NCBI GenBank assembly: GCA_030272585.1
Contig: BSYQ01000007.1
Location: forward strand, 2,360,001-2,424,000
Origin: Bryopsis sp. KO-2023
Lineage: Eukaryota; Chlorophyta; Ulvophyceae; Bryopsidales; Bryopsidaceae
Reading direction: 5' to 3'
DNA: 64,000 nucleotides
Shown here: one piece after another, positions 13,106 to 30,500 of the stretch
Numbering within the stretch: position 1 is the first letter of the stretch
Layout: every line of letters begins with the position of its first letter
Position numbers and translations under genes: made by a program
Notes under the pieces: model-generated
What the model saw: the letters and a program-made list of their open reading frames with translations, nothing else
Told to the model about the DNA's origin: nothing
Database searches by the model: none

Positions 13106-13278
13106 TGTTGGGAATTTGATTTCAGAGTAGCCTTAATTTCTGTAGATGTGAACTAAATTAGTTGATGAGAGGAGAGATCTTGAAGTATAAGTTTGGAAAG
13201 TGGGATTGTGTCCGAGAACAATTTTCTGTAAGAAAAAAACACTTGTTCAAAACAAGGCTAAGGCTGGCGATATTAACA
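13106..13278 (+). repeat. 5' LTR of element A (173 bp)
   Basis: Starts TGTTGGGAATTTG and ends GATATTAACA. Matches 59782-59954 with no difference seen by eye. Confidence 0.93.
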
Positions 13279-14527
13279 TGGTTTCGGAGCTGGTGTTATC
13301 ACTACTCCTGATATCCGCCTTATGCCAAGCCTCGGCGTATCCACTTGTGTGGAAAACACCCGCTGTTTCTGAAAAAGTCACGGCCATTCAGAAACTGGTT
13401 GAGGAGTATGAGAGCCTGGGTCACGAGACAAAAGAAGATAAGGAAAAGGTCTCGCTTATATTAGAAGCGGCCCAGAGCTTGGTTTGGGAACGTCGGAGAC
13501 GAAAAGCACGAAAAGAGGAACCTCCGTTATTCTCACTTGAATTTCTACAGACGGTGGAAAAGATACGGTTGTTGACAGCTCGTCTGAAGCATAGATCGGC
13601 AGACTTGGGTTTACTCGGATTGGGACTTACAACAAGTATGCTGGCGTCTTACTCCCTGAAAGTGGCAAAAGTGCTGTGGAGAACCTTGTCGGACTGGCGA
13701 AACAAACGCTCACCAAGCGTGTGGGCGGCGGAACATAAGCATGGAGGGAAGGACTTTCGAGCTAAAGGAGGAAACCGACGTGGGTTAAGTCAGGAAGACA
13801 TGGAGCTGGTGCGCCGACTTTGCACCCTCCTCAACACGACTACACCACCGGTTTCGTCTGCAGAGATGAGTTCCCAAGAGGAATCGAACCTCAACACAGC
13901 CAGTGGGAACAGCGGACCCATCACCTACAAGCAGCTCCGCGTAAGAATAAGACTTGGGGAGGATCCCAAGCTTCACGACGTACTCGTCGACTCAGGGTCG
14001 ACTGTGAACGTGTTACCTTTGGCATACGCTAAGCGGAATGGTCTTGGAATCCAGCCGTCAACACTTTCCGAGTTGTCTGGGTTCAATGGAGCGAAAGAAA
14101 AAGTCGTCGGCGTAATACCCATGGCGATAGCGGTTGGACCTTGGGAAAGTAGAGAGTCCTTCGTCGTGGCTGCTTCAGCCCGTCAGATAATACTGGGTAT
14201 GCCTTTCCTGAGCCATAGGCAATTGAGCGTGGATTGTTTAAAAGAGTGCTTACGAAGTGTGGACGGGAAAACGGTGGCTTGTCACGTAGTCACTCACCCA
14301 GCGGCAAGTGCACCACCCATCGCCGAAGCCGATCTGCCTTTTCCGGCCCTTTACCCACCTGTTGTGGAACCTCCTCAAGCTGAACACTTTGGAAGTGGAG
14401 GGGAGGTAGCGACTGTTACGCTGTGTGATGGAGAATGTGATGGAGAAGGAGACGGAGACGGAGACAGAACACAGACGTCTGGCCAGGACGCAGAGGAGGC
14501 CACGGGATCTATTGTTTCGACTAACCC
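13278..14527 (+). CDS. Element A polyprotein, segment 1: leader, membrane-like segment, protease
   Basis: The first ATG (13278) overlaps the last base of the LTR and the primer-binding site. The N-terminus MVSELVLSLLLISALCQASA looks like a signal peptide. A second hydrophobic stretch (LGLLGLGLTTSMLASYSL) follows about 100 residues later. No capsid-like domain or CCHC zinc knuckle is seen where Gag should be. The protease core is VLVDSGSTVNVLPL (near 13,980-14,020), with DSG as catalytic triplet and ILGMPFL as its C-terminal flap partner. The frame runs to the B1 insertion and resumes in frame at 20333; the open frame past 14527 is B1 LTR sequence. The 13200 start sometimes implied by the open frame is only GTG inside the LTR. 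Confidence 0.8.
13279..13290 (+). other. Primer-binding site of element A
   Basis: TGGTTTCGGAGC directly follows the LTR. It would pair with a tRNA ending GCUCCGAAACCA. B and C elements have the same 12 bases. The tRNA could not be identified from the sequence alone. Confidence 0.75.
14523..14527. repeat. Target-site duplication of B1 (left), AACCC
   Basis: AACCC flanks B1 at 14523-14527 and again at 20328-20332, inside the A coding frame. Confidence 0.92.
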
Positions 14528-14799
14528 TGTTATAAACCTCTCTCTCCAGGAAAATAACCTCCCAGCGCCCTTCCTTGAAGTCCCTTTAACCCATCAAACC
14601 CCCACTCCTTGATGGGACCCTTGAGATGACAGGGATCACCTCAGGGCGAGACACCTGGGCTTGCTATGAGTCATCCTTTCAGCACACGTGCTATAATGAT
14701 CTCATGGACCTTAAGCATATGACTAGAGCCATGTTAGTGCCCACGACTAACCCTTGAGCTCTAGTAGTGCATAGACATACTCGGCGTACACTTATAACA
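14528..14799 (-). repeat. 3' LTR of B1 (272 bp)
   Basis: Carries inverted ends TGTTATAA and TTATAACA. Matches 20056-20327 and, in reverse complement, both B2 LTRs. Confidence 0.94.
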
Positions 14800-14948
14800 G
14801 TGCCCCCTCCCTGATGTGAAGCCGCCCTCGGCTTTACTAGGGAATCAAATGCTGATTGGCATCAAGCAAAAGATAGTTGTCTTTTGACATTTGCACTTTC
14901 AGAGAAAGAAGATCATCATCATCCAGTGGCCTACTGTGATATGATGTC

Positions 14949-17900
14949 TCAAACCTTCGCTTTTGATCTTCTACGGATCGTGCGAGGTACTACAGTCGAC
15001 TGTTCTTGCGATTGGTGAAATGCATCAACCAATTCCTTTGCATGCAAGACATTTTCTTCGGGTTCCCAAGAGTTATGTTCATGGCCATAACCAAGCCACT
15101 TCACAAGGTATTCTGTATGGCATTTCTTCCCTCTGCGTCGCTCTCTGCGATCAAGAATGCGCTCAACCTCCCACTCCAGATCTCCCTCGATCTCAACAGG
15201 TGGTGGTGGTTGTACAGTTCCTTTAGCCCAATATGGCTTTAACAGTGAAGCATGGAACACCGGATGTATGGGCAAAGTTGCAGGAAGCTTCAGCTTGAAT
15301 GCAACCTCATTTATTTCACGCTCAATTGGGAAAGGTCCTACCCATTTTGGCGTTAATTTACGTGAACCTGGGTGCTTGAGTCGAAGATTTCTTGCATCTA
15401 ATAATACAAGGTCTCCTACTTTGACTTGCACTGGTACACGATGGCGATCAGCTTGCGCTTTAAAGCGTTGCTGTGCGGCTTGAAGGCGTTTCTTTGCCTC
15501 AACAATCCCTTCCCGAATTTCATTCGTCATTTTCTGAACTTCTGGTACAGCCACTTGCTTCGACCCTTTTCTAGGGATCTGAGCAGTCAATGCTGTCCAT
15601 GGATCTCTTCCATAATTCAGAAAGAAGGGTGTTTCACCAGTTGCTTCGGATTTAGAGTTATTTATTGCAAACTCTACAACCGGTAACAAATCCGCCCAAT
15701 TCTTTTGGGATGGCCCGACAAAGTGGCGGAGTGTATCCTCCATGACTTTGTTCATAGCTTCGGTTTGCCCATCTGTTTGTGGGTGATAAGCCGAAGACAA
15801 GGCCTGTGAGATTTCCCATGTATAGCACAACTCCCTGAAGAAGTGCGATACAAATCTCGGGTCTCTATCTGTGACCAACTTCTTTGGCATACCATGTGCC
15901 TTGAATACATGGTTCACAAAGAGTTTTGCTGCTTCCACGGCTGAGCACTCTGTACTTGTTGCCGCCAAATGAACCATTTTGGTCAACATATCCACGAATA
16001 CGAGGATTGCATCATGACCTTCTCCTTTGGATGGTGGGAGATTAGTGACAAAATCCATCGAAACATTTTCCCATTGTGCATTCGGGATAGGCAAGGGTTT
16101 CAGAGGGCCTTGTGGCTTTGTTCGCCTCCCTTTATGCCTTTGACATGAGTCACATCCTCGCACATAGGATTTGATTTGGTCCTCCATTTGAGGCCACCAG
16201 AAATGTTTCTTGATTTGCCGACTTGTCTTAGCCACTCCAAAGTGACCCGAATAGACAGTGCTATGGCAATCTTGGATTATTTCTTGTCTCAATGATCCAT
16301 CATTTGGTACTGATATCACATTTCCATTCCACCAAATTCCATCTTGGTTCTGTAACATCTGGGCAGCTTCCAGAGTTTGATACCAAGGATCTTTGGTGTA
16401 CCCTTCAACCAGCCTTGACTCCAACTGGGTATGATAACCCCGAGGCAGAGATGGGACCTCAGGATCCCGCGGTCTAGAAACCAAGCCACTCGATCTCACG
16501 GTCTCGCATAATACTCCAATTGAAGAAGGAGAAGACGGTATACGTGACAAGGGATCAGCCACATTTACTCGCCCTGGTCTATACTCCCATTCAAATTGGA
16601 AATCATGGAGCAATTCTAGCCAGCGGACCTGCCGTCGATTCAAGGTCGATCGGGAATGAAAGAATGTGTTTGGACTATGGTCGGTAATCACTCGGAATTT
16701 TCTGCCTTGCAAGTAGCATCTCCATAATTGAAGTGCATACACAGTAGCATACATTTCCTGATCACTCGTCGACCAATTGAGTTGTGGACCTTGCAGCTTT
16801 TTGCTTTCATAAGCTATTGGGTGTCCTTCTTGCAGGAGAACTGCTCCAATTGCCTTTGTAGAAGCATCAGTGATTACTTCGAAAGGTTTAGAGAAGTCCG
16901 GCAAAACCAAACACGGTGCTTCCGTGAGTGCCGTTTTCACCCCTTCAAAAGCTGTCTCACACTCATGAGTCCATTCCCATGTCTTCTTCTTTTTGAGAAG
17001 ATCAGTCATTGGAGAAGCCAAGGCTGAATACCCCTGTACGAACTTGCGAAAGTAATTGGCGAGTCCGAGGAACGACCTTGGTGCTTCCGTGAGTGCCGTT
17101 TTCACCCCTTCAAAAGCTGTCTCACACTCATGAGTCCATTCCCATGTCTTCTTCTTTTTGAGAAGATCAGTCATTGGAGAAGCCAAGGCTGAATACCCCT
17201 GTACGAACTTGCGAAAGTAATTGGCGAGTCCGAGGAACGACCTTAAGTCATCCACCCCACTAGGACGAGGCCAATTTTTCACTTTAGCCGTTTTACTCGG
17301 GTCAACTGAGATACCATTGCGGCCCACCACGAAGCCTAAGTAGCGCAACTCAGTTTTGTTGAAGTCACATTTGGACTTCTTCAAGAACAATTTATGTTCT
17401 CGCAACCTTTGTAATACTTCTCGAAGATGTTTCAAATGTTCCTTTGGTGTCTTTGAAAAGACTAAAATATCATCCAAGTAGATCAAGACATATTTGCCAA
17501 TCATACCATGGAAGACTGAGTTCATCAGTGTCTGAAACACTGCCGGTGCGTTTGATAATCCCATCGGGAGCACCCGGTACTCAAATAAACCAAAGGGTGT
17601 TTTGAAGGCTGTTTTGGGGATGTCGTCTTCCTTGACTCTGACCTGCCAGTATCCGGCTCTCAGGTCAAGAGAAGTAAAACATCTCGAGCCTTGTAACTCA
17701 TCCAAGAGATCGTCGATCCGTGGAATCGGGAACTGATTCCGGATAGTTACTTTATTAAGACCCCTGTAGTCTATGCACATCCTGAAGCCTCCATCCTTTT
17801 TCGGTACGAAAAGAACTGGAGCACCCCAAGGGCTAGAACTAGGTCTTATGAGCTTTTTGGCTAAGAGTTCGGACAACTGATCCTGAATCTCTTGCCGCTC

Positions 17901-19511
17901 TGCGGGGGAATACCGAAAAAGTGGCCGGTTTACGGGACGTGTACCTTCTTCTAAAGGAATGTCCACTTCTACGGCTCTTTTCGGGGGATATTCCGCCAAA
18001 CCAGTTACAAACAAATCATCAAATTCCTCCAAGAGAGATTCCATCTCCTTCTCAGGGACTTGATCTGATTCACCGGTTTCCTCCGCTACACTTACATGTG
18101 CGGGTACGTCCTGTACTTCACGAATTACCACCAGAAATGGTTGAAGAGAGGAATCCTTGAGTTTTCTCTTCACCTGTGGAATAGTGAGTAAGGAACCAAC
18201 ATTTTTGTGGGGAATGCTTTGTTCTCCACCAGTGGCCTTGGGCAAAAGACCCTGGCGTATCAAGATCCGTTGACTTGCGGAATTCGTCACGGCACACTTC
18301 TTCTCAAAGAAGGCCAAGACTGCCTTGCGATTTCGCAACCACGTATCACCCAAAATGATATCAAATTTCTCCATCAGATCAATCACCAAACAATTTAACT
18401 TCTCGCGGAAGCCTTGAATTTTCAGAGAGATCTTTGTTTCACCTAAGATATCAATATAACTCCCATTGGCCAATTCGGCTTGCGAACTTGTGGTTACCTT
18501 GAAGGAAATCCCATTTTGTTCACAAAATCTCTTGGAAAGGAATGCTAATCCCTTAGCTCCTGAGTCCAAAAGACAATGGGCAGGAATGCCACTAAGAGTT
18601 CCCTCAAAGTGCATTGACATCCTGTCTTGGGTAAGTAAATCTTGAGTATCCTTTGGTACCAAGGGGACAGGTGGGTCATAGTATACATTCACTGGCCAAG
18701 GAAGACCTGGAAGTCTTTTCCGGCGCTTTCCTTTCATAGCGGTGAACAAAACCATGCCCTTCTTGTATTGTGCAATTAGTCTCATAGAGGCCAAGGCCGG
18801 ATGCGGCTCTTTATTCCACTGTGGAACCAGAATGCAACAAGAAGTATTGTGTCGAGACTTATTCTTTTCTCTCACATAGTGATCAATGTATTTGTGAAGC
18901 TCCTTGAATGGAGGATTCAGCCATACATGCTCGCCCGAAAGAGTAGTCTCAAAAAACCCCTCACCAATACAAAACTTTGCACACAAGGCATTGGTTTGGT
19001 CTGAGTTAGCACACCCGTCCAAGCTAAACGCTTGTCCCGTGAGTGACTCGAGACGCTGAAACTCTGCCTTGAGTATTGTTTTGTCTGATTGGATATTAGA
19101 TCTTTCATTCACATCCTCTGGAGGGACAGAAGTTTGTGCTTCTTCCTGTTTCTCCTTTCTCTTTTGACCACGAGTCACGATAGGCGCTAAATGTGCACTA
19201 TCCACTTCCATTGGGTCACAATTAGGATGAGAATTCAAATCTTGCCTCAGAAATTTCCAGTCATGGGGCTTGGACCTCTGAGAAGCATGTGTAACAACCT
19301 CTTTGGGTTTTCCACATTTATGTCCTCGTGTCCAAGTCTCTCCACAAAACCAGCACAATCCCAACTGTTTGCGAGCTTTCAACTCTGCTTTGGTCAGTTG
19401 GCTGACTGATTTTCTTTTGGAAACTTGAGGTTTAGAGGAATGCTCAGTAGCATTTTTCCTCTCATCAAAAGAATCACTTTGCCCCGTGTTCTTTTGGGTG
19501 GATTTCTGCAT
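14949..19511 (-). CDS. Element B1 polyprotein: zinc knuckle, Dam-like, protease, RT, RNase H, integrase, chromodomain
   Basis: This 1,520-residue product is identical to the B2 product, where the domains are described in full. The ATG at 19511 lies 544 bp inside the 5' LTR, and no capsid-type Gag ORF precedes it. The frame is intact, with RT YLDD, DD35E integrase and C-terminal chromodomain. The 55-residue tandem duplication of the RT-RNase H linker falls at 17079-17243 and 16914-17078. A start much further upstream is unlikely because in-frame stops lie a few codons before the ATG. Confidence 0.95.
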   Translation of the reverse strand: MQKSTQKNTGQSDSFDERKNATEHSSKPQVSKRKSVSQLTKAELKARKQLGLCWFCGETWTRGHKCGKPKEVVTHASQRSKPHDWKFLRQDLNSHPNCDPMEVDSAHLAPIVTRGQKRKEKQEEAQTSVPPEDVNERSNIQSDKTILKAEFQRLESLTGQAFSLDGCANSDQTNALCAKFCIGEGFFETTLSGEHVWLNPPFKELHKYIDHYVREKNKSRHNTSCCILVPQWNKEPHPALASMRLIAQYKKGMVLFTAMKGKRRKRLPGLPWPVNVYYDPPVPLVPKDTQDLLTQDRMSMHFEGTLSGIPAHCLLDSGAKGLAFLSKRFCEQNGISFKVTTSSQAELANGSYIDILGETKISLKIQGFREKLNCLVIDLMEKFDIILGDTWLRNRKAVLAFFEKKCAVTNSASQRILIRQGLLPKATGGEQSIPHKNVGSLLTIPQVKRKLKDSSLQPFLVVIREVQDVPAHVSVAEETGESDQVPEKEMESLLEEFDDLFVTGLAEYPPKRAVEVDIPLEEGTRPVNRPLFRYSPAERQEIQDQLSELLAKKLIRPSSSPWGAPVLFVPKKDGGFRMCIDYRGLNKVTIRNQFPIPRIDDLLDELQGSRCFTSLDLRAGYWQVRVKEDDIPKTAFKTPFGLFEYRVLPMGLSNAPAVFQTLMNSVFHGMIGKYVLIYLDDILVFSKTPKEHLKHLREVLQRLREHKLFLKKSKCDFNKTELRYLGFVVGRNGISVDPSKTAKVKNWPRPSGVDDLRSFLGLANYFRKFVQGYSALASPMTDLLKKKKTWEWTHECETAFEGVKTALTEAPRSFLGLANYFRKFVQGYSALASPMTDLLKKKKTWEWTHECETAFEGVKTALTEAPCLVLPDFSKPFEVITDASTKAIGAVLLQEGHPIAYESKKLQGPQLNWSTSDQEMYATVYALQLWRCYLQGRKFRVITDHSPNTFFHSRSTLNRRQVRWLELLHDFQFEWEYRPGRVNVADPLSRIPSSPSSIGVLCETVRSSGLVSRPRDPEVPSLPRGYHTQLESRLVEGYTKDPWYQTLEAAQMLQNQDGIWWNGNVISVPNDGSLRQEIIQDCHSTVYSGHFGVAKTSRQIKKHFWWPQMEDQIKSYVRGCDSCQRHKGRRTKPQGPLKPLPIPNAQWENVSMDFVTNLPPSKGEGHDAILVFVDMLTKMVHLAATSTECSAVEAAKLFVNHVFKAHGMPKKLVTDRDPRFVSHFFRELCYTWEISQALSSAYHPQTDGQTEAMNKVMEDTLRHFVGPSQKNWADLLPVVEFAINNSKSEATGETPFFLNYGRDPWTALTAQIPRKGSKQVAVPEVQKMTNEIREGIVEAKKRLQAAQQRFKAQADRHRVPVQVKVGDLVLLDARNLRLKHPGSRKLTPKWVGPFPIEREINEVAFKLKLPATLPIHPVFHASLLKPYWAKGTVQPPPPVEIEGDLEWEVERILDRRERRRGKKCHTEYLVKWLGYGHEHNSWEPEENVLHAKELVDAFHQSQEQSTVVPRTIRRRSKAKV

Positions 19512-20040
19512 TTTCTTGCAGTATCCCTCTACTTCAAGCCCGCGGCGAAGAAGTGAGTATGAGAGTTATTTTTAGACCAACACTTGTGTTGGGGGAAACC
19601 TCTGTGGATATTCCCTTTGTCCTTTAGACAAATCTGTAACCACCTCTTTGTGTGGATAACTCTTCTTTTCGTGGTGTTTCCTTGTAAACTGCTTTAATTT
19701 AATTTTTCTTTGGACACAACAAGCACCTCTAGGGTCTGCTTGAAAAATATCCCAAAATTATCCAACCCTGACGAAAAATGTTAAGGACCTCTTGGGTCTC
19801 CTTAAAAGAGAACGAAGGACCTCTTGGGTCTCCTTCTAGACTCGAAAAACCACTCTGCAGAAAGTCTGAAGCAATACCCTAACTTTGACAGAGCATAACT
19901 TTCCGCACACAGCTCGGAATAAACCCCAACTGGACTCAAACGAAGCGGATTTTTCTTAGCTTACTTTTCGACACCTTATTTGTCCAATTCGGACCTTAGA
20001 CGCCGAAGTTATCGTCGTTTCCGTGACGGACTCTTCACCT

Positions 20041-20052
20041 GCTCCGAAACCA
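20041..20052 (-). other. Primer-binding site of B1
   Basis: On the minus strand the 5' LTR is followed by GTT and then TGGTTTCGGAGC, the same site as in A, B2 and C. Confidence 0.75.
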
Positions 20053-20055
20053 AAC

Positions 20056-20327
20056 TGTTATAAACCTCTCTCTCCAGGAAAATAACCTCCCAGCGCCCTT
20101 CCTTGAAGTCCCTTTAACCCATCAAACCCCCACTCCTTGATGGGACCCTTGAGATGACAGGGATCACCTCAGGGCGAGACACCTGGGCTTGCTATGAGTC
20201 ATCCTTTCAGCACACGTGCTATAATGATCTCATGGACCTTAAGCATATGACTAGAGCCATGTTAGTGCCCACGACTAACCCTTGAGCTCTAGTAGTGCAT
20301 AGACATACTCGGCGTACACTTATAACA
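20056..20327 (-). repeat. 5' LTR of B1 (272 bp)
   Basis: Matches 14528-14799 with no difference seen by eye. Followed by the AACCC duplication. Confidence 0.94.
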
Positions 20328-20332
20328 AACCC

Positions 20333-22166
20333 TCTCGATTCTGACCCCTCTTCCTCTATTTCTGTCGATACTCCTATGACCGAAAAAAACAAACTCGATG
20401 CTCCACTCGAGGAGCTGGCATCGGTACAGGAGCCAGCAGAACAAGAAGTCCCACAGCAGGATATGGAGGAAGAGATCACGAGGGTGGAACAGGAGATCAC
20501 GGCAGCAGAAGTCAAGTCCAAGGAGATCACGAAGTCGGAACAGGAGACCATGGCGAAAGGAGTTGTGAAGTCAGAAAGAGAGGCACCTGCAAGCGACACA
20601 ACCAACCTTTTTCGATCCCAGCCACTGGTCACGGTGTACACGGCAGCAAACAAACGCAGTCAAGCCAAACGACTTCGCATTTCTCAAGGGCGCATGTACA
20701 TACCTTTGGGCGGCTCGGTTGTCCTGGGCCCTCGGATGTCCAAGACGGTCATTCCTCCTTTCCGTATCACGGGAGAGGGCATCTGCGGGGTGCTACCTAT
20801 AGGACAAATCATAAATGTGTTTCACACAATCACATTGGGAGGAAATGGAGCAGTCAGAGTCAAATTACACAATATGAGCAATGAGAGTCGCATGCTCACA
20901 GGCAAACTCTGCTTAGCAGCAGTCCTTCTGAAGAAGAATGCGAGATTGTCATGGATCAGTGAAGAGAGTTTGTGCATGGTTGAGCATCAGTTGGATCATC
21001 CCACTCCACTGGATACGAAACAAAACGAGTGGGATGTCCCTATTTCAGATTTGGAAAAGGAATGTTTTGAAGGGGAAGGTGGTTGTAAAAGTGCATTGGC
21101 TTATGGGACAGTTTCAGCACCACCACTTACCCACAGCTCATCAGCTCCCTCTGAGGTGAATCCTCCTTCAGACCTTGGCTCCTCCTCTTATGCACGATTG
21201 CTTGGGTCATGCTTGGATACAGGATGTTGGGCAGCTACACCAACTCTTCCTGCAATCTTGGAATGCACACCTGACACATCAAAGGATACACATGGAGCAA
21301 CAAGGTCAAAAGAGGATATTACTACACATCAGCCACTGGTTCATGTGCTGGCATACGAAATGGAGTCACATCAGGATACAGTAAGAACTGTTTCAGAAAA
21401 ATCAGTTGGAGAGTTGCAAGGAAATTTTGGATTATCGGAATTCACCTTCCAGGGAGTTCCCTCTCCTCCTTCAGCTCCAACGACTCCCCACATGGATGGC
21501 AGTTTACAGCCTTCTCTGGGGACCTCTTCTGAAAACACTCGATTCAATTCTGGAAAGGAAGCAGCAGAGGTACCTTCTGCAGCTCCTGGAGTTTTGAAGA
21601 CAAATTCGGGACTATCGGAATTCACCTTCCAGGGAATTCCCTCTCCTTCTTCAGCTCCAACCACTCCTCACACAGATGGCACTTTACAGCTTTCTCTGGG
21701 GATCCTTTCTGAAAGCTCTCGGGTCAGTTCTGGAAGGGACACACAAGCAGACTTTTCTGCAGATCCAGTTGGACAACATCAACAGACCAATGCAACATTT
21801 CTGGGAGGACACGGAGGGAGTGCAAAGACAAACCTGAATGTGCCTGCAGTTCCACCTCCAACTCCAGAAGCTGCTCAGCTCCCCTTGCGAATGGATAAGG
21901 ACACCTGTGGACAGACAAAGGAAAAGTTGGAAACTGGGAGGAACGAGGATAAAGCAGAGCAAACAGATGAAACGAACTCCCCTGAGGATGCCTCCCTACT
22001 CCAGCACTGGACATCAAGGTTCCCTGACGTCTTCACTGACGACCTACAACACATTCCGAAAAACAAATGGAGTAAACGACTTCGCATATGCCACAGGGAA
22101 ATAGACTGGAGGATACCTATGCACAGAATACCGTTGTCGTCGACAGGAAGACGATACCATCCTACC
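20333..22166 (+). CDS. Element A polyprotein, segment 2: linker with dUTPase-like domain, repeats, RT N-terminus
   Basis: Continues segment 1 in the same frame once B1 and one target duplicate are removed. It starts with an acidic Glu-rich linker. A beta-rich stretch follows (about 20,620-20,950: IPPFRITGEGICGVLP... VRVKLHNMSNESRMLTGKL). It has the spacing of a dUTPase-like fold but no intact catalytic motif, so that call is tentative. Next come two about 60-residue tandem repeats (about 21,420-21,735) beginning GLSEFTFQG. HWTSRFPDVFTDDL and the fingers of RT close the segment. The frame is cut by B2 at 22166 and resumes at 27972. The open frame past 22166 is B2 LTR. Confidence 0.78.
21420..21735 (+). 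repeat. Two tandem protein repeats in element A
   Basis: Two units of about 60 codons, each starting near a GLSEFTFQG-type motif and followed by Pro/Ser-rich text (PSAPTTPH). The units differ at scattered positions, so this duplication is older than the insertions. Confidence 0.7.
22162..22166. repeat. Target-site duplication of B2 (left), CTACC
   Basis: CTACC is repeated at 27967-27971 after the 3' LTR. Confidence 0.92.
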
Positions 22167-22438
22167 TGTTATAAGTGTACGCCGAGTATGTCTATGCACT
22201 ACTAGAGCTCAAGGGTTAGTCGTGGGCACTAACATGGCTCTAGTCATATGCTTAAGGTCCATGAGATCATTATAGCACGTGTGCTGAAAGGATGACTCAT
22301 AGCAAGCCCAGGTGTCTCGCCCTGAGGTGATCCCTGTCATCTCAAGGGTCCCATCAAGGAGTGGGGGTTTGATGGGTTAAAGGGACTTCAAGGAAGGGCG
22401 CTGGGAGGTTATTTTCCTGGAGAGAGAGGTTTATAACA
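22167..22438 (+). repeat. 5' LTR of B2 (272 bp)
   Basis: Starts TGTTATAAGTG and ends GTTTATAACA. Matches the 3' LTR at 27695-27966. Confidence 0.94.
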
Positions 22439-22441
22439 GTT

Positions 22442-22453
22442 TGGTTTCGGAGC
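22442..22453 (+). other. Primer-binding site of B2
   Basis: TGGTTTCGGAGC, three bases after the 5' LTR. Confidence 0.75.
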
Positions 22454-22982
22454 AGGTGAAGAGTCCGTCACGGAAACGACGATAACTTCGGCGTCTAAGG
22501 TCCGAATTGGACAAATAAGGTGTCGAAAAGTAAGCTAAGAAAAATCCGCTTCGTTTGAGTCCAGTTGGGGTTTATTCCGAGCTGTGTGCGGAAAGTTATG
22601 CTCTGTCAAAGTTAGGGTATTGCTTCAGACTTTCTGCAGAGTGGTTTTTCGAGTCTAGAAGGAGACCCAAGAGGTCCTTCGTTCTCTTTTAAGGAGACCC
22701 AAGAGGTCCTTAACATTTTTCGTCAGGGTTGGATAATTTTGGGATATTTTTCAAGCAGACCCTAGAGGTGCTTGTTGTGTCCAAAGAAAAATTAAATTAA
22801 AGCAGTTTACAAGGAAACACCACGAAAAGAAGAGTTATCCACACAAAGAGGTGGTTACAGATTTGTCTAAAGGACAAAGGGAATATCCACAGAGGTTTCC
22901 CCCAACACAAGTGTTGGTCTAAAAATAACTCTCATACTCACTTCTTCGCCGCGGGCTTGAAGTAGAGGGATACTGCAAGAAA
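22454..22982 (+). other. B2 5' leader, no Gag capsid ORF
   Basis: This 529-bp leader between primer site and polyprotein start has no open frame of useful length on the sense strand. It contains a repeated phrase (GGAGACCCAAGAGGTCCTT, twice near 22,660-22,710) that could be RNA structure or a packaging signal. A chromovirus would normally encode matrix/capsid Gag here. Confidence 0.6.
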
Positions 22983-25900
22983 ATGCAGAAATCCACCCAA
23001 AAGAACACGGGGCAAAGTGATTCTTTTGATGAGAGGAAAAATGCTACTGAGCATTCCTCTAAACCTCAAGTTTCCAAAAGAAAATCAGTCAGCCAACTGA
23101 CCAAAGCAGAGTTGAAAGCTCGCAAACAGTTGGGATTGTGCTGGTTTTGTGGAGAGACTTGGACACGAGGACATAAATGTGGAAAACCCAAAGAGGTTGT
23201 TACACATGCTTCTCAGAGGTCCAAGCCCCATGACTGGAAATTTCTGAGGCAAGATTTGAATTCTCATCCTAATTGTGACCCAATGGAAGTGGATAGTGCA
23301 CATTTAGCGCCTATCGTGACTCGTGGTCAAAAGAGAAAGGAGAAACAGGAAGAAGCACAAACTTCTGTCCCTCCAGAGGATGTGAATGAAAGATCTAATA
23401 TCCAATCAGACAAAACAATACTCAAGGCAGAGTTTCAGCGTCTCGAGTCACTCACGGGACAAGCGTTTAGCTTGGACGGGTGTGCTAACTCAGACCAAAC
23501 CAATGCCTTGTGTGCAAAGTTTTGTATTGGTGAGGGGTTTTTTGAGACTACTCTTTCGGGCGAGCATGTATGGCTGAATCCTCCATTCAAGGAGCTTCAC
23601 AAATACATTGATCACTATGTGAGAGAAAAGAATAAGTCTCGACACAATACTTCTTGTTGCATTCTGGTTCCACAGTGGAATAAAGAGCCGCATCCGGCCT
23701 TGGCCTCTATGAGACTAATTGCACAATACAAGAAGGGCATGGTTTTGTTCACCGCTATGAAAGGAAAGCGCCGGAAAAGACTTCCAGGTCTTCCTTGGCC
23801 AGTGAATGTATACTATGACCCACCTGTCCCCTTGGTACCAAAGGATACTCAAGATTTACTTACCCAAGACAGGATGTCAATGCACTTTGAGGGAACTCTT
23901 AGTGGCATTCCTGCCCATTGTCTTTTGGACTCAGGAGCTAAGGGATTAGCATTCCTTTCCAAGAGATTTTGTGAACAAAATGGGATTTCCTTCAAGGTAA
24001 CCACAAGTTCGCAAGCCGAATTGGCCAATGGGAGTTATATTGATATCTTAGGTGAAACAAAGATCTCTCTGAAAATTCAAGGCTTCCGCGAGAAGTTAAA
24101 TTGTTTGGTGATTGATCTGATGGAGAAATTTGATATCATTTTGGGTGATACGTGGTTGCGAAATCGCAAGGCAGTCTTGGCCTTCTTTGAGAAGAAGTGT
24201 GCCGTGACGAATTCCGCAAGTCAACGGATCTTGATACGCCAGGGTCTTTTGCCCAAGGCCACTGGTGGAGAACAAAGCATTCCCCACAAAAATGTTGGTT
24301 CCTTACTCACTATTCCACAGGTGAAGAGAAAACTCAAGGATTCCTCTCTTCAACCATTTCTGGTGGTAATTCGTGAAGTACAGGACGTACCCGCACATGT
24401 AAGTGTAGCGGAGGAAACCGGTGAATCAGATCAAGTCCCTGAGAAGGAGATGGAATCTCTCTTGGAGGAATTTGATGATTTGTTTGTAACTGGTTTGGCG
24501 GAATATCCCCCGAAAAGAGCCGTAGAAGTGGACATTCCTTTAGAAGAAGGTACACGTCCCGTAAACCGGCCACTTTTTCGGTATTCCCCCGCAGAGCGGC
24601 AAGAGATTCAGGATCAGTTGTCCGAACTCTTAGCCAAAAAGCTCATAAGACCTAGTTCTAGCCCTTGGGGTGCTCCAGTTCTTTTCGTACCGAAAAAGGA
24701 TGGAGGCTTCAGGATGTGCATAGACTACAGGGGTCTTAATAAAGTAACTATCCGGAATCAGTTCCCGATTCCACGGATCGACGATCTCTTGGATGAGTTA
24801 CAAGGCTCGAGATGTTTTACTTCTCTTGACCTGAGAGCCGGATACTGGCAGGTCAGAGTCAAGGAAGACGACATCCCCAAAACAGCCTTCAAAACACCCT
24901 TTGGTTTATTTGAGTACCGGGTGCTCCCGATGGGATTATCAAACGCACCGGCAGTGTTTCAGACACTGATGAACTCAGTCTTCCATGGTATGATTGGCAA
25001 ATATGTCTTGATCTACTTGGATGATATTTTAGTCTTTTCAAAGACACCAAAGGAACATTTGAAACATCTTCGAGAAGTATTACAAAGGTTGCGAGAACAT
25101 AAATTGTTCTTGAAGAAGTCCAAATGTGACTTCAACAAAACTGAGTTGCGCTACTTAGGCTTCGTGGTGGGCCGCAATGGTATCTCAGTTGACCCGAGTA
25201 AAACGGCTAAAGTGAAAAATTGGCCTCGTCCTAGTGGGGTGGATGACTTAAGGTCGTTCCTCGGACTCGCCAATTACTTTCGCAAGTTCGTACAGGGGTA
25301 TTCAGCCTTGGCTTCTCCAATGACTGATCTTCTCAAAAAGAAGAAGACATGGGAATGGACTCATGAGTGTGAGACAGCTTTTGAAGGGGTGAAAACGGCA
25401 CTCACGGAAGCACCAAGGTCGTTCCTCGGACTCGCCAATTACTTTCGCAAGTTCGTACAGGGGTATTCAGCCTTGGCTTCTCCAATGACTGATCTTCTCA
25501 AAAAGAAGAAGACATGGGAATGGACTCATGAGTGTGAGACAGCTTTTGAAGGGGTGAAAACGGCACTCACGGAAGCACCGTGTTTGGTTTTGCCGGACTT
25601 CTCTAAACCTTTCGAAGTAATCACTGATGCTTCTACAAAGGCAATTGGAGCAGTTCTCCTGCAAGAAGGACACCCAATAGCTTATGAAAGCAAAAAGCTG
25701 CAAGGTCCACAACTCAATTGGTCGACGAGTGATCAGGAAATGTATGCTACTGTGTATGCACTTCAATTATGGAGATGCTACTTGCAAGGCAGAAAATTCC
25801 GAGTGATTACCGACCATAGTCCAAACACATTCTTTCATTCCCGATCGACCTTGAATCGACGGCAGGTCCGCTGGCTAGAATTGCTCCATGATTTCCAATT

Positions 25901-27545
25901 TGAATGGGAGTATAGACCAGGGCGAGTAAATGTGGCTGATCCCTTGTCACGTATACCGTCTTCTCCTTCTTCAATTGGAGTATTATGCGAGACCGTGAGA
26001 TCGAGTGGCTTGGTTTCTAGACCGCGGGATCCTGAGGTCCCATCTCTGCCTCGGGGTTATCATACCCAGTTGGAGTCAAGGCTGGTTGAAGGGTACACCA
26101 AAGATCCTTGGTATCAAACTCTGGAAGCTGCCCAGATGTTACAGAACCAAGATGGAATTTGGTGGAATGGAAATGTGATATCAGTACCAAATGATGGATC
26201 ATTGAGACAAGAAATAATCCAAGATTGCCATAGCACTGTCTATTCGGGTCACTTTGGAGTGGCTAAGACAAGTCGGCAAATCAAGAAACATTTCTGGTGG
26301 CCTCAAATGGAGGACCAAATCAAATCCTATGTGCGAGGATGTGACTCATGTCAAAGGCATAAAGGGAGGCGAACAAAGCCACAAGGCCCTCTGAAACCCT
26401 TGCCTATCCCGAATGCACAATGGGAAAATGTTTCGATGGATTTTGTCACTAATCTCCCACCATCCAAAGGAGAAGGTCATGATGCAATCCTCGTATTCGT
26501 GGATATGTTGACCAAAATGGTTCATTTGGCGGCAACAAGTACAGAGTGCTCAGCCGTGGAAGCAGCAAAACTCTTTGTGAACCATGTATTCAAGGCACAT
26601 GGTATGCCAAAGAAGTTGGTCACAGATAGAGACCCGAGATTTGTATCGCACTTCTTCAGGGAGTTGTGCTATACATGGGAAATCTCACAGGCCTTGTCTT
26701 CGGCTTATCACCCACAAACAGATGGGCAAACCGAAGCTATGAACAAAGTCATGGAGGATACACTCCGCCACTTTGTCGGGCCATCCCAAAAGAATTGGGC
26801 GGATTTGTTACCGGTTGTAGAGTTTGCAATAAATAACTCTAAATCCGAAGCAACTGGTGAAACACCCTTCTTTCTGAATTATGGAAGAGATCCATGGACA
26901 GCATTGACTGCTCAGATCCCTAGAAAAGGGTCGAAGCAAGTGGCTGTACCAGAAGTTCAGAAAATGACGAATGAAATTCGGGAAGGGATTGTTGAGGCAA
27001 AGAAACGCCTTCAAGCCGCACAGCAACGCTTTAAAGCGCAAGCTGATCGCCATCGTGTACCAGTGCAAGTCAAAGTAGGAGACCTTGTATTATTAGATGC
27101 AAGAAATCTTCGACTCAAGCACCCAGGTTCACGTAAATTAACGCCAAAATGGGTAGGACCTTTCCCAATTGAGCGTGAAATAAATGAGGTTGCATTCAAG
27201 CTGAAGCTTCCTGCAACTTTGCCCATACATCCGGTGTTCCATGCTTCACTGTTAAAGCCATATTGGGCTAAAGGAACTGTACAACCACCACCACCTGTTG
27301 AGATCGAGGGAGATCTGGAGTGGGAGGTTGAGCGCATTCTTGATCGCAGAGAGCGACGCAGAGGGAAGAAATGCCATACAGAATACCTTGTGAAGTGGCT
27401 TGGTTATGGCCATGAACATAACTCTTGGGAACCCGAAGAAAATGTCTTGCATGCAAAGGAATTGGTTGATGCATTTCACCAATCGCAAGAACAGTCGACT
27501 GTAGTACCTCGCACGATCCGTAGAAGATCAAAAGCGAAGGTTTGA
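22983..27545 (+). CDS. Element B2 polyprotein: zinc knuckle, Dam-like methyltransferase domain, protease, RT, RNase H, integrase, chromodomain
   Basis: 1,520 residues in one frame. Residues 53-66 form a plant-chromovirus-type zinc knuckle (CWFCGETWTRGHKC). About 150-275 resemble phage-type DNA N6-adenine methyltransferase (Dam): FSLDGCAN at 162-169, NPPF at 199-202, then CCILVPQW. Protease DSG is at 316-318. RT has YLDD at 678-681. RNase H acidic residues are D882, E919, D944 and D986. The integrase HHCC finger is H1083, H1090, C1120, C1123, and the catalytic triad is D1153, D1215, E1251 (35-residue spacing). GPF is near 1392 and a chromodomain (EYLVKWLGYGHEHNSWEPEENV region) is at about 1446-1500. 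The RT-RNase H linker is tandemly duplicated (757-811 and 812-866). No capsid is seen. The chromodomain would bias integration to marked chromatin. Confidence 0.95.
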   Translation: MQKSTQKNTGQSDSFDERKNATEHSSKPQVSKRKSVSQLTKAELKARKQLGLCWFCGETWTRGHKCGKPKEVVTHASQRSKPHDWKFLRQDLNSHPNCDPMEVDSAHLAPIVTRGQKRKEKQEEAQTSVPPEDVNERSNIQSDKTILKAEFQRLESLTGQAFSLDGCANSDQTNALCAKFCIGEGFFETTLSGEHVWLNPPFKELHKYIDHYVREKNKSRHNTSCCILVPQWNKEPHPALASMRLIAQYKKGMVLFTAMKGKRRKRLPGLPWPVNVYYDPPVPLVPKDTQDLLTQDRMSMHFEGTLSGIPAHCLLDSGAKGLAFLSKRFCEQNGISFKVTTSSQAELANGSYIDILGETKISLKIQGFREKLNCLVIDLMEKFDIILGDTWLRNRKAVLAFFEKKCAVTNSASQRILIRQGLLPKATGGEQSIPHKNVGSLLTIPQVKRKLKDSSLQPFLVVIREVQDVPAHVSVAEETGESDQVPEKEMESLLEEFDDLFVTGLAEYPPKRAVEVDIPLEEGTRPVNRPLFRYSPAERQEIQDQLSELLAKKLIRPSSSPWGAPVLFVPKKDGGFRMCIDYRGLNKVTIRNQFPIPRIDDLLDELQGSRCFTSLDLRAGYWQVRVKEDDIPKTAFKTPFGLFEYRVLPMGLSNAPAVFQTLMNSVFHGMIGKYVLIYLDDILVFSKTPKEHLKHLREVLQRLREHKLFLKKSKCDFNKTELRYLGFVVGRNGISVDPSKTAKVKNWPRPSGVDDLRSFLGLANYFRKFVQGYSALASPMTDLLKKKKTWEWTHECETAFEGVKTALTEAPRSFLGLANYFRKFVQGYSALASPMTDLLKKKKTWEWTHECETAFEGVKTALTEAPCLVLPDFSKPFEVITDASTKAIGAVLLQEGHPIAYESKKLQGPQLNWSTSDQEMYATVYALQLWRCYLQGRKFRVITDHSPNTFFHSRSTLNRRQVRWLELLHDFQFEWEYRPGRVNVADPLSRIPSSPSSIGVLCETVRSSGLVSRPRDPEVPSLPRGYHTQLESRLVEGYTKDPWYQTLEAAQMLQNQDGIWWNGNVISVPNDGSLRQEIIQDCHSTVYSGHFGVAKTSRQIKKHFWWPQMEDQIKSYVRGCDSCQRHKGRRTKPQGPLKPLPIPNAQWENVSMDFVTNLPPSKGEGHDAILVFVDMLTKMVHLAATSTECSAVEAAKLFVNHVFKAHGMPKKLVTDRDPRFVSHFFRELCYTWEISQALSSAYHPQTDGQTEAMNKVMEDTLRHFVGPSQKNWADLLPVVEFAINNSKSEATGETPFFLNYGRDPWTALTAQIPRKGSKQVAVPEVQKMTNEIREGIVEAKKRLQAAQQRFKAQADRHRVPVQVKVGDLVLLDARNLRLKHPGSRKLTPKWVGPFPIEREINEVAFKLKLPATLPIHPVFHASLLKPYWAKGTVQPPPPVEIEGDLEWEVERILDRRERRRGKKCHTEYLVKWLGYGHEHNSWEPEENVLHAKELVDAFHQSQEQSTVVPRTIRRRSKAKV
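25251..25580 (+). repeat. 165-bp in-frame tandem duplication inside B2 pol
   Basis: Two 55-codon units, 25251-25415 and 25416-25580, nearly identical in nucleotides, each starting RSFLGLANYF and ending TALTEAP. The same duplication is in B1 at 16914-17243, so it existed in the parent element. Confidence 0.93.
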
Positions 27546-27694
27546 GACATCATATCACAGTAGGCCACTGGATGATGATGATCTTCTTTCTCTGAAAGTG
27601 CAAATGTCAAAAGACAACTATCTTTTGCTTGATGCCAATCAGCATTTGATTCCCTAGTAAAGCCGAGGGCGGCTTCACATCAGGGAGGGGGCAC

Positions 27695-27966
27695 TGTTAT
27701 AAGTGTACGCCGAGTATGTCTATGCACTACTAGAGCTCAAGGGTTAGTCGTGGGCACTAACATGGCTCTAGTCATATGCTTAAGGTCCATGAGATCATTA
27801 TAGCACGTGTGCTGAAAGGATGACTCATAGCAAGCCCAGGTGTCTCGCCCTGAGGTGATCCCTGTCATCTCAAGGGTCCCATCAAGGAGTGGGGGTTTGA
27901 TGGGTTAAAGGGACTTCAAGGAAGGGCGCTGGGAGGTTATTTTCCTGGAGAGAGAGGTTTATAACA
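27695..27966 (+). repeat. 3' LTR of B2 (272 bp)
   Basis: Matches 22167-22438. Followed by the CTACC duplication. Confidence 0.94.
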
Positions 27967-27971
27967 CTACC

Positions 27972-29891
27972 GGCATCGAGAAACACGAAATCGCTGAGTT
28001 CATGGGAAACCTGGAGCGAAAAGGAGTAGTCGAGCACCTCTTACCTGGACAGCGCGCTCATTTCTCCCCAGTTCTATTCTTGAGGAAGCCGTCAGGGAAA
28101 CTCCGCAAGACTGTCGACTTCAGGACGCTCAATGGCTATTCTCCTCCCTGGGGTTCGTCATCTCTGAATGTGCGTTCGGTGGTGGACTCCATCCCTGCGG
28201 AATGGACGACGTTCTCTGTCCTCGACCTCTCTGACGGTTTCTTCCAATTGGAAGTGTGTCCTTCCCTTCGCCCACTCTTTGGCTTCGAAACAGACGTCGG
28301 ACGCTATTGGTACCTCCGCCTTCCGCAGGGGTGGAGTTCATCACCAGGGCTGTTCCATGAACGCGTGAAGTCCGTTTTGGAGGGGAAGGCCGCCCGAAAT
28401 TTCGTCGACGATATCCTAGTAGGGGGAAGAAACCGCGCAGAGCATGACCTCCACCTTCACCAAGTTCTGGAACGCCTTCGCGAGATCGGGTGGTGCGTAA
28501 ACCCCTCGAAGGCCCAAATCGCTCGCTCGGAAGTCCAATTTCTCGGCTACACCCTGGGTCCTGAAGGCATTTCGTTAAAACACTTCTTGGAGCAACAGCG
28601 AAAAAACTTACCTCCTATCCGCTCTCCCAGCGATCTTCGGAAGGTCCTAGGGCTCTTCAATGTCTCGCGCGGAGTGTGCCCAGGCTACAGCGCATACGTG
28701 GAGCCCCTACACGCACAGCCACCGAACACTCCTGGAGAAACATTGGACCAACTGGCGAAAGAAGCATGGACGAAAATACTGGAGAACAACATCTCACTTA
28801 CGAGGGAAGAAGCCTCCACTTTCCACCTCCAAGTGGATTGGTCGGGAACTGGGCGAGGCTACGTGCTCTTCTCGGGACCGCCGGAACAAGGAAGGGTCGT
28901 CGCGCTCAACTCCCAACGGCTCTCGGGCGTTCCTCCGTCCAGCTTCTTGGGCGAACTCCAATGCCTCGCCTGGTCCCTGAGCGATGTCATGCCTTTGGTG
29001 GGAGCTCGACCTATCGTGGTTTACACTGATTCCCAAAGTGCTTACCACCGCTTACGCAATCCTCCTGGGCCAGACCTCATGTCGGACCTCCGCGCTGCTC
29101 GCCTCGTCGCTTGGATTTGGTCACACTTCCCTTCTCCTGGACGCATGCGAGTGGAGTTTCTGGCAGGTGAAAGCAATCCCTGGGCCGACCAACTGTCGCG
29201 ATGGTTCGCGAAGGAGGACGTCCCAGTCGTCAGCCCTATCCAGGTGTCGCCATCTCGTTCCGCGCTGCAAGCTCTTCACTCGGACGGTCACTGGAAGTCA
29301 CATAAACTCCAGTGGCAATGCCACCAAATGGGCTGGGACGTCAGCCTGTCGGAGATCCACGAAGTCGTTAAAAGCTGTAACACATGCCAACACTTCACGC
29401 CACCGAAGGAAAAAGAGACCTTAGGCTCTCCGACGAACCCAAAGCGGCCTGGCGAGAGCCTTAACATTGATTTGATAGGACCACTACCTGTTGATTCGAA
29501 AGGACACAGATACATAATGTGTTTGGTCGACGGACTTACTCGCCTTGGATTCGCTGTTCCGCTGAAGAAGTCGTCAACCCAATCCATCCTCGCTACTCTG
29601 GACATCTGGCTCAAGGCAGCTCCCACTCCAAACACGATTCTCACCGACGGTGCCAGCTACTTCCAGTCTTCCACGGTCTCCAATTGGGCCCACCGCCGTG
29701 GAATACGGTTGGATCGCGTTCCTGCACACCATCACAGAGCCAATGGATTGATAGAGCGGTTCAACCGAACGTTACTGGATCGTCTGAGAGTTTTGCAATT
29801 CGACCTGGGAGGAGAATGGAGTAATCACATCAACAGAGCCTTGGACCAGATCAACAATATGATTCACGACACCACAAAATACTCGCCTGCT
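27972..29891 (+). CDS. Element A polyprotein, segment 3: RT, RNase H, integrase core
   Basis: Continues segment 2 in frame after removing B2. The RT has SPVLFLRKPSGKLR, LDLSDGFFQLE and LPQGWSSSPGLFHE. Its catalytic FVDD is at 28401-28412, a Y-to-F variant of YVDD; the LPQG/SPxLF wording recalls retroviral RT more than ordinary Gypsy. RNase H follows (VDWSGTGRGYVLF, GELQCLAW, YTDSQSAYHRL). The integrase has an H/H/C/C finger (CNTCQ near 29,380), then D at 29469, D at 29646 and E at 29754, a DD35E spacing. The segment stops at the C-family junction at 29891 after KYSPA. The last part of the integrase resumes at 59458, with some residues apparently lost. Confidence 0.9.
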
Positions 29892-30500
29892 TGTAACCAA
29901 CAAATTGCGTCGCCTTGACCGCTGGGGTCACCCCTGCAGCCGTACTTAACGGTTGTGGTGGCGTTTCTGCAGAACTGGAACGGCAGAAGTGGGGACAGCC
30001 CCTCTTGAACTTGATCACACGGCCTTTGCAAGGCACTTTACTCAGGTCTCTTCTCAAAAGCTTTCTTACAACAATCAAAAAGGTCCACACTCGAACAAAA
30101 CACAAGAACCTAACCCAGAAGATCCGCACCAAGAAGAAGTACAATACCCTAAGATCAGCCGTTTAAATAGGCTGCAGCCTGACTCACCCTTGTCCCATTG
30201 ATCGCCTAGGATCCCACCTACTGATTAAGACAACCTAACCCATCAAGCCTAACTGATCTTTCTAACCACCCTAAGTCCACTCCCTCAGTACCAATCCCTA
30301 GGACTGTCCAACCTAGTCAACTCTGTAGCTGAACTGCTACCTCTAAACTGTGGCGGAACTGCCATGGCAGAACTGTCCCGGGGTGACTGCTAGCCCTACG
30401 TAATCCGTCTGGGACTGCCTCAAGCAGCATTCCCTCCCCTGATATCACTCTAGCCCTGGAGGTGACAAAATTGGTCGAGGCGACGTGGTTTGGGGTTACA
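29892..30500 (-). repeat. 3' LTR of C-minus copy 1 (609 bp)
   Basis: Bounded by TGTAACC and GGTTACA. The minus-strand 3' end reads CAATTTGTTGGTTACA, one T longer than in the other copies. Confidence 0.85.

Follow-up and report, generated by a model that had tools for sequence, protein, structure and literature searches.

In a 64,000-nucleotide (nt) stretch of the genome of the green alga Bryopsis sp. KO-2023 (contig BSYQ01000007.1, positions 2,360,001 to 2,424,000; hereafter the window), two identical copies of a 5.8-kb long terminal repeat (LTR) retrotransposon of the chromovirus type, element B, lie in opposite orientations (B1 and B2), and the polyprotein of each contains a domain homologous to N6-adenine methyltransferases of the Dam type between the zinc knuckle and the protease. 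We hold, with a probability of roughly 0.55, that this domain was captured once, has been maintained since, and most likely has a non-catalytic role throughout the clade of elements that bear it. An original prediction made from the sequence of the window had proposed a Dam-like domain inside a chromovirus polyprotein, and sequence profiles, profile-profile comparison, the predicted structure and the anatomy of the element all bore this out.

The 1520-amino acid (aa) open reading frame (ORF) of B showed profile matches in chromovirus order, namely protease, RVT_1, RNase H, integrase H2C2, rve, Tf2-1 SH3 and Chromo. The succession of protease, reverse transcriptase (RT), RNase H and integrase with a C-terminal chromodomain is that of the chromoviruses (Ty3/Gypsy, Metaviridae), as are the features of the element's ends; in both B1 and B2, 272-nt LTRs (TG..CA) enclose a primer-binding region and a purine tract, and a 5-bp target duplication flanks each copy. 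The Dam-like domain (residues 145–283) sits between the zinc knuckle (53–66) and the protease motif LLDSGA (314), the placement originally proposed, and the sequence stretches quoted in support of it were present where they had been located. The domain limits had been given as 23415–23807; the start was right, whereas the end lies slightly further, at about 23831. Likewise, the coordinates given for the second copy (18687–19079) proved right, with a 100% match on the minus strand, while the plus strand there reads as junk with stops.

A search of the 91.1-Mb genome (28 contigs) with the B domain yielded at least 150 copies (150 of 180 candidates were scored and 150/150 matched), 147 of which have no internal stop, some copies being partial. 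The genome also gave 107 matches to chlorophyll-binding profiles, and one of its Lhca proteins differs at 6 of 264 residues from chain 7 of PDB 6igz, a structure linked to Bryopsis corticulans (PMC11194369), as expected for a Bryopsis or a near relative. Five Dam-bearing families were distinguished: B (29 full-length matches, nearly identical to one another), F68 (at about 68% identity), F45, F42 and F40. The family representatives have open frames of 1483–1781 aa and LTR pairs, found in the four other families as well as in B, that are 99–100% identical; all five families carry the domain between knuckle and protease, and their representatives share the primer-binding region TTGGTTTCGGAGC, which would pair with a tRNA 3' end. 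From their identity steps and ORF sizes, the best 150 of 1703 candidates for the B RT (76–100% identity) appear to belong to the same five families. Gag-like N-termini are present in the F45, F42 and F40 ORFs; the F68 capsid (Gag) region was matched in 0/29 B loci (L009–L037; 22439–22982 in the window) versus 10/10 F68 loci, and we take B to be a member of the chromovirus clade derived by loss of Gag, which it may have to obtain in trans.

The profile checks proposed for the domain gave matches. The B domain alone matched phrog_111, annotated ‘DNA methyltransferase’ (E=1.3e-9), Pfam Dam (PF05869; E=4.2e-5, 23.7 bits, under the cut-off of 28.1) and TIGR01712 (NCBIfam phage_N6A_met; 7.2e-5, 22.4 bits, far under the cut-off of 97), and the F68 domain exceeded the Pfam Dam cut-off (30.3 bits, 4.1e-7). 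The sole other Pfam match of the B domain up to E=10 was PCIF1 (PCIF1_WW, 0.006); PCIF1 is an adenine-N6 methylase too. We also compiled phage and bacterial Dam stretches (118 tried, nine dropped for stops, leaving 109) and aligned them jointly with the alga's own domains; against the resulting profile B scored 33.4 bits, F68 42.4 and the three other families 13.3–19.8, the best shuffle reaching 10.4 bits among 9419 reported shuffles (12000 made). Comparison with a profile of seven phage Dams gave a probability of 97.2 (E 2.9e-11). A tblastn search of 50,697 phage records (E<=1) returned 616 records for F68 (the best of those listed at E 2e-4 and covering 86% of the query) and 328 for B, with the weaker point that the best single match listed for B reached only E=0.1; methyltransferase or methylase annotation was found in 20/20 of the listed rows for B and in 35/40 for F68, the other five being hypothetical or unannotated. 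No C5 cytosine methylase profile matched in scans of B or of the sister-family proteins, and a viral contig profile search gave no confirmed match. An ordinary Gag or linker segment was rejected, no such match having been obtained and the adjoining linker being far less conserved than the domain. Homology to phage-type Dam (PF05869/phrog_111) is thus well supported at the level of sequence.

The predicted structure of the domain, modelled on an alignment with 89 of the 109 clean Dams, is a class I S-adenosylmethionine (AdoMet) methyltransferase fold, with Rossmann-like strands and helices and the motif NPPF after a central strand. Among solved structures it comes closest to adenosine-N6 methyltransferases, with PCIF1/CAPAM in first place, in alignments that cover only about 124–141 residues of chains with 467–494. 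By this likeness the domain of B and F68 could be a PCIF1-like RNA adenosine-N6 methyltransferase acting on the cap (N6,2'-O-dimethyladenosine, m6Am) or on internal N6-methyladenosine (m6A) sites of the genomic RNA. The domain alone also matched PCIF1 by phmmer (E=0.0042) besides the Pfam match above, and its place beside the nucleocapsid is near RNA; furthermore, an m6A RNA demethylase exists in Ty3/Gypsy elements of orchids (PMC9289625). We nevertheless regard this reading as improbable, since the sequence is nearer to phage Dam (phrog_111) and the polyprotein has no PCIF1 domains beyond the methylase core. A search of PDB with two domain profiles gave one unrelated match (E=0.83) and none, respectively, which does not exclude phage-type Dam among PDB matches; because the profile matched no solved phage-type Dam, PCIF1 may rank first by default. 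PCIF1/CAPAM has further regions around its methylase core, and a scan of the B polyprotein revealed none of them.

To place the Dam-bearing families among their relatives, seven other chromovirus families were chosen from 150 scored of 1093 Tf2-1 SH3 matches. Their N-terminal stretches contained no Dam-like domain (longest frame, best E 0.38), nor did a six-frame search of the same families detect one (best E 1.4, with positive controls at 1e-54 or better). A maximum-likelihood RT-RNaseH tree set the five Dam families apart from these seven as well as from three further Gypsy ORFs in the window (ultrafast bootstrap 99), with F45/F42/F40 as a clade (100) and B with F68 split off at 96. In a FastTree tree of the domain itself (61 sequences, the phage/bacterial rows being thinned to every second one), the alga's own domains grouped together (0.996), as did those of F45, F42 and F40 (0.987). 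Transfer from the Dam of a local DIRS-like element was rejected, the two not grouping in this tree, in which the short domain gives weak resolution. One capture is the simplest reading; given the homology, the single RT clade and the constraint found in all five families (see below), the domain was probably captured once and maintained. Copies of the F40 type also recur at regular spacings of about 10.2 kb (C5: 5824946, 5835188, 5845430) and about 11.9 kb (C6: 2583441, 2595385, 2607327), as in tandem amplification of an element-holding stretch.

The catalytic residues divide the families. In domain numbering, the 109 Dams are invariant at Asp21, Trp47, Asn55-Pro56-Pro57-[Tyr/Phe]58, Gly108 and Phe112, and B and F68 retain every one of these except Trp47. 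The Asp of the AdoMet-loop equivalent SLDGCANSDQTNALC is invariant in the 109 Dams and in all five families. NPPF was read in 39/39 distinct copies of B and F68 (29 and 10, respectively; one directly after a stop) but in 0/8 distinct copies of the other families (three F45, one F42, four F40; 49 sequences were given, two being repeats of a place), where motif IV reads DPGR in F45 and F42 and NPGK in F40. All five families have lost Trp47 (100% in the 109 Dams), Thr89 (94%) and Arg109 (98%) and are without the Thr-Pro near the start (98/95%), and Arg88 (91%) is kept in F68 only. Because these near-invariant residues were looked for and found missing, we regard the domain as Dam-derived and do not count it among the functional Dam enzymes.

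An active DNA adenine methyltransferase in B and F68, placing N6-methyldeoxyadenosine (6mA) on element cDNA or host DNA, is possible but doubtful on these sequences. As green-algal 6mA marks active genes, such a mark could give new insertions the appearance of active chromatin; in Chlamydomonas, 6mA lies on expressed genes and 5-methylcytosine is confined to transposons (PMC12695648). The retention of NPPF and of the invariant Asp, the phage DNA N6A methylases found as profile relatives, and MT-A70 matches in the host genome (10 exon matches) would agree with an active enzyme. Against it stand the residues lost in B and F68 as well (Thr-Pro, Trp47, Thr89 and Arg109, with Arg88 also lost in B) and the sister families, which have the same placement without the catalytic motif. 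GATC counts of B and F68 were not separable from those of the motif-less families; with no clear pattern, GATC content was rejected as a signature of activity.

Selection was measured as the ratio of nonsynonymous to synonymous differences per site (pN/pS) in the domain and in the linker just before it, for pairs of families (ranges in brackets). The domain gave 0.27 (0.20–0.38) versus 0.68 (0.48–1.00) for the linker in B/F68, 0.26 (0.17–0.40) versus 0.63 (0.43–0.97) in F45/F42, both motif-less, and 0.43 (0.34–0.54) versus 0.83 (0.58–1.18) in F42/F40; with the F68/F42 pair as the fourth, values for the protease were 0.19, 0.22, 0.33 and 0.53, and for the RT 0.12–0.18. The domain is under purifying selection, motif-less families included, and its preservation after loss of the core motif implies that it appears to serve the element. 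The earlier suggestion of a structural leftover is too weak for a domain that is more conserved than the preceding linker even between motif-less families. A fossil passenger, kept only since its deletion would break the Gag-Pol frame, would fit the absence of the catalytic motif from three of five families and the recent B copies, whose variation shows few signs of constraint (17 variant codons with a replacement and 8 silent ones in 30 sequences, 29 distinct); such apparently near-neutral variation is to be expected in copies once they are inserted. Between families, however, the domain is constrained nearly like the protease, and the linker has diverged to 6–45% identity across the six family pairs compared; because this occurred in the same frame, in-frame drift is tolerated there, and we consider a mere passenger very improbable.

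In the explanation that we favour, an ancestor of a chromovirus clade in a green alga would have captured a phage/bacterial-type Dam (PF05869-like) domain once, and the domain would have become fixed between the nucleocapsid and the protease of the Gag-Pol polyprotein; purifying selection has preserved it in all five families. The catalytic NPP[FY] was lost in the F45/F42/F40 clade, with a shared second P>G change, while fold and constraint remained, and all five families lost further Dam-typical residues. Because the domain persists without the catalytic motif, the property kept across the clade would not be catalysis; we infer a selected function as an AdoMet- or nucleic-acid-binding fold beside the zinc knuckle, which in the single-ORF families would be produced in a 1:1 ratio to Gag and would act on the RNA or cDNA of the element in the particle, in RNA packaging, reverse transcription or the route to integration. 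The data show the homology, the placement, the single clade, the motif loss and the purifying selection; the binding role, the timing of events and the substrate are put forward conditionally, and B and F68 may still methylate adenine.

Several results weigh against this explanation. The NPPF kept in all copies of B and F68 read fits ongoing catalysis there, F68 also retaining Arg88, and the domain tree places B, weakly (0.549), with the motif-less families and not with F68. The F68/F42 pair showed no clear difference between domain (0.52) and linker (0.61), and the deeper pairs approach saturation at synonymous sites. Alone, the domains of F45, F42 and F40 match no Pfam or PHROG Dam family. 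Furthermore, because the fold model rests on the phage/bacterial Dam alignment, structure and sequence match are not separate lines of evidence; from the single sequence, the same stretch reached a predicted local distance difference test (pLDDT) score of 36.

Compared with phage and bacterial Dam (PF05869/TIGR01712/phrog_111), the alga's domains have, in the same order, an LDxxA-type loop with the invariant Asp, NALC.KF, VW-NPP[FY], an LVP strand and a G..F strand; they differ in the missing Thr-Pro, Trp47, Thr89 and Arg109, in lying inside a retrotransposon polyprotein, and in the absence of NPP[YF] from three of five families. The dUTPase of betaretroviruses, between nucleocapsid and protease, is a captured enzyme at the same polyprotein position, in an unrelated enzyme and virus group. 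DIRS elements, for which the original prediction mentioned N6A-methyltransferase-like domains, are described as carrying Dam-like domains (PMC3783388; PMC5890265), to which no function is assigned (PMC3266345). DIRS1-like elements share with B a Dam-like domain in a retrotransposon (RT-RH-Dam pol); their Dam follows RNase H, however, in elements described as having a tyrosine recombinase and no protease or DDE integrase (PMC3783388), whereas B, an LTR chromovirus with a protease and a DDE (rve) integrase, carries its domain ahead of the protease and after the nucleocapsid, and so falls outside DIRS. The same genome has a DIRS-like element with RT-RNaseH-Dam (L045, 2129–4198; similar ORFs in L046, L047 and L049), whose Dam reads HPPW where NPPY is expected and whose second long ORF, without a Pfam match, reads by eye as a tyrosine recombinase.

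Cytosine methyltransferases, also mentioned in the original prediction, are known in retrotransposons: elements with a captured cytosine-C5 methyltransferase (DNMT) have been described (de Mendoza et al. 2018, PMC5890265), and the retrotransposons with cytosine methylases are reported to include Ty3/Gypsy (PMC6338049). They resemble B in having captured a DNA methyltransferase, but the C5 enzymes are structurally unrelated to Dam. The orchid ALKBH5-like m6A demethylase (PMC9289625) is another accessory domain of adenine-N6 methylation; it is an eraser in a separate ORF with in vitro activity, whereas B has a putative writer fold inside Gag-Pol. A precedent for a fold kept clade-wide without its active site is the tether RNase H of retroviruses and Tat elements, likewise an enzyme fold that outlasts its catalytic residues in a retroelement polyprotein (PMC10508981); there, a native RNase H has an active second copy, whereas here the methylase fold is captured and a second copy was not seen. 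Literature searches aimed at such a case, which covered open-licence papers, found no chromovirus described as carrying an adenine methylase domain, in agreement with the earlier statement that none was known for a chromodomain Gypsy element, and the nucleocapsid-Dam-protease placement is new as far as this literature was searched.

Table 1. Coordinates of element B and its parts in the window
Feature	Position	Strand	Basis or remark
B2, complete chromovirus LTR element	22167..27966	+	LTRs and target duplication
B1, copy identical to B2, inverted	14528..20327	-	own target duplication
B2 LTRs, TG..CA	22167-22438 and 27695-27966	+	272 nt each
Primer-binding region, directly 3' of 5' LTR	22439..22453	+	TTGGTTTCGGAGC
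B polyprotein, 1520 aa	22983..27545	+	knuckle, Dam-like, protease, RT, RNase H, integrase (H2C2, core, SH3), chromodomain
B1 polyprotein	14949..19511	-	ORF; same as that of B2
Zinc knuckle CWFCGETWTRGHKC, residues 53-66	23139..23180	+	assigned by eye, without profile match
Dam-like N6-adenine methyltransferase-fold domain, residues 145-283	23415..23831	+	profiles, predicted fold, profile-profile comparison
Dam-like domain in B1	18663..19079	-	identical inverted copy
AdoMet-loop equivalent SLDGCANSDQTNALC	23469..23513	+	putative loop role
Catalytic tetrapeptide NPPF (motif IV)	23577..23588	+	alignment to Dams
Aspartic protease active site LLDSGAKG	23922..23945	+	domain after the Dam-like one
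C-terminal chromodomain region	27336..27482	+	profile match

The target duplication of B2 is CTACC on both sides and that of B1 is AACCC (read on the plus strand); because each copy has its own, different duplication, the two are independent insertions, and a segmental inversion as the origin of the pair was rejected. Both copies seem to be inserted in one other Gypsy-like element (13200–14527, 20328–22166 and 27967–29918), and joining the flanks of each minus one target duplication gave an open frame across the site. In both copies, moreover, 165 nt (55 aa) of the RNase H region are exactly duplicated in tandem (25250–25579 and 16915–17244), and among the matches listed a 1538-aa frame occurs only in the two window copies; the two different target duplications suggest that the variant with the 165-nt duplication itself transposed. 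Elsewhere in the window (31982–57396), ORFs of another Gypsy family recur at a spacing of 16,680 (31982/48662, 33997/50677 and 38638/55318), which points to either a nest or the tandem duplication of a large segment. Scanning the window for Rfam families and tRNAs gave no match.

Taken together, these elements represent a second retrotransposon lineage, besides DIRS, with a captured Dam-like domain. That B and F68 methylate their own nucleic acid before integration while the module of the sister families is a catalytically dead binder seems rather unlikely; if true, one position of a particle-forming polyprotein would display a natural series from writer to binder. The finding bears on 6mA in green algae, a mark on expressed genes in Chlamydomonas, and if B and F68 were active on DNA, their mark would resemble that of such genes (PMC12695648). 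Since motif-intact and motif-less versions occur in one genome with many young copies, the question whether such elements benefit from adenine methylation itself or just from having the fold is testable.
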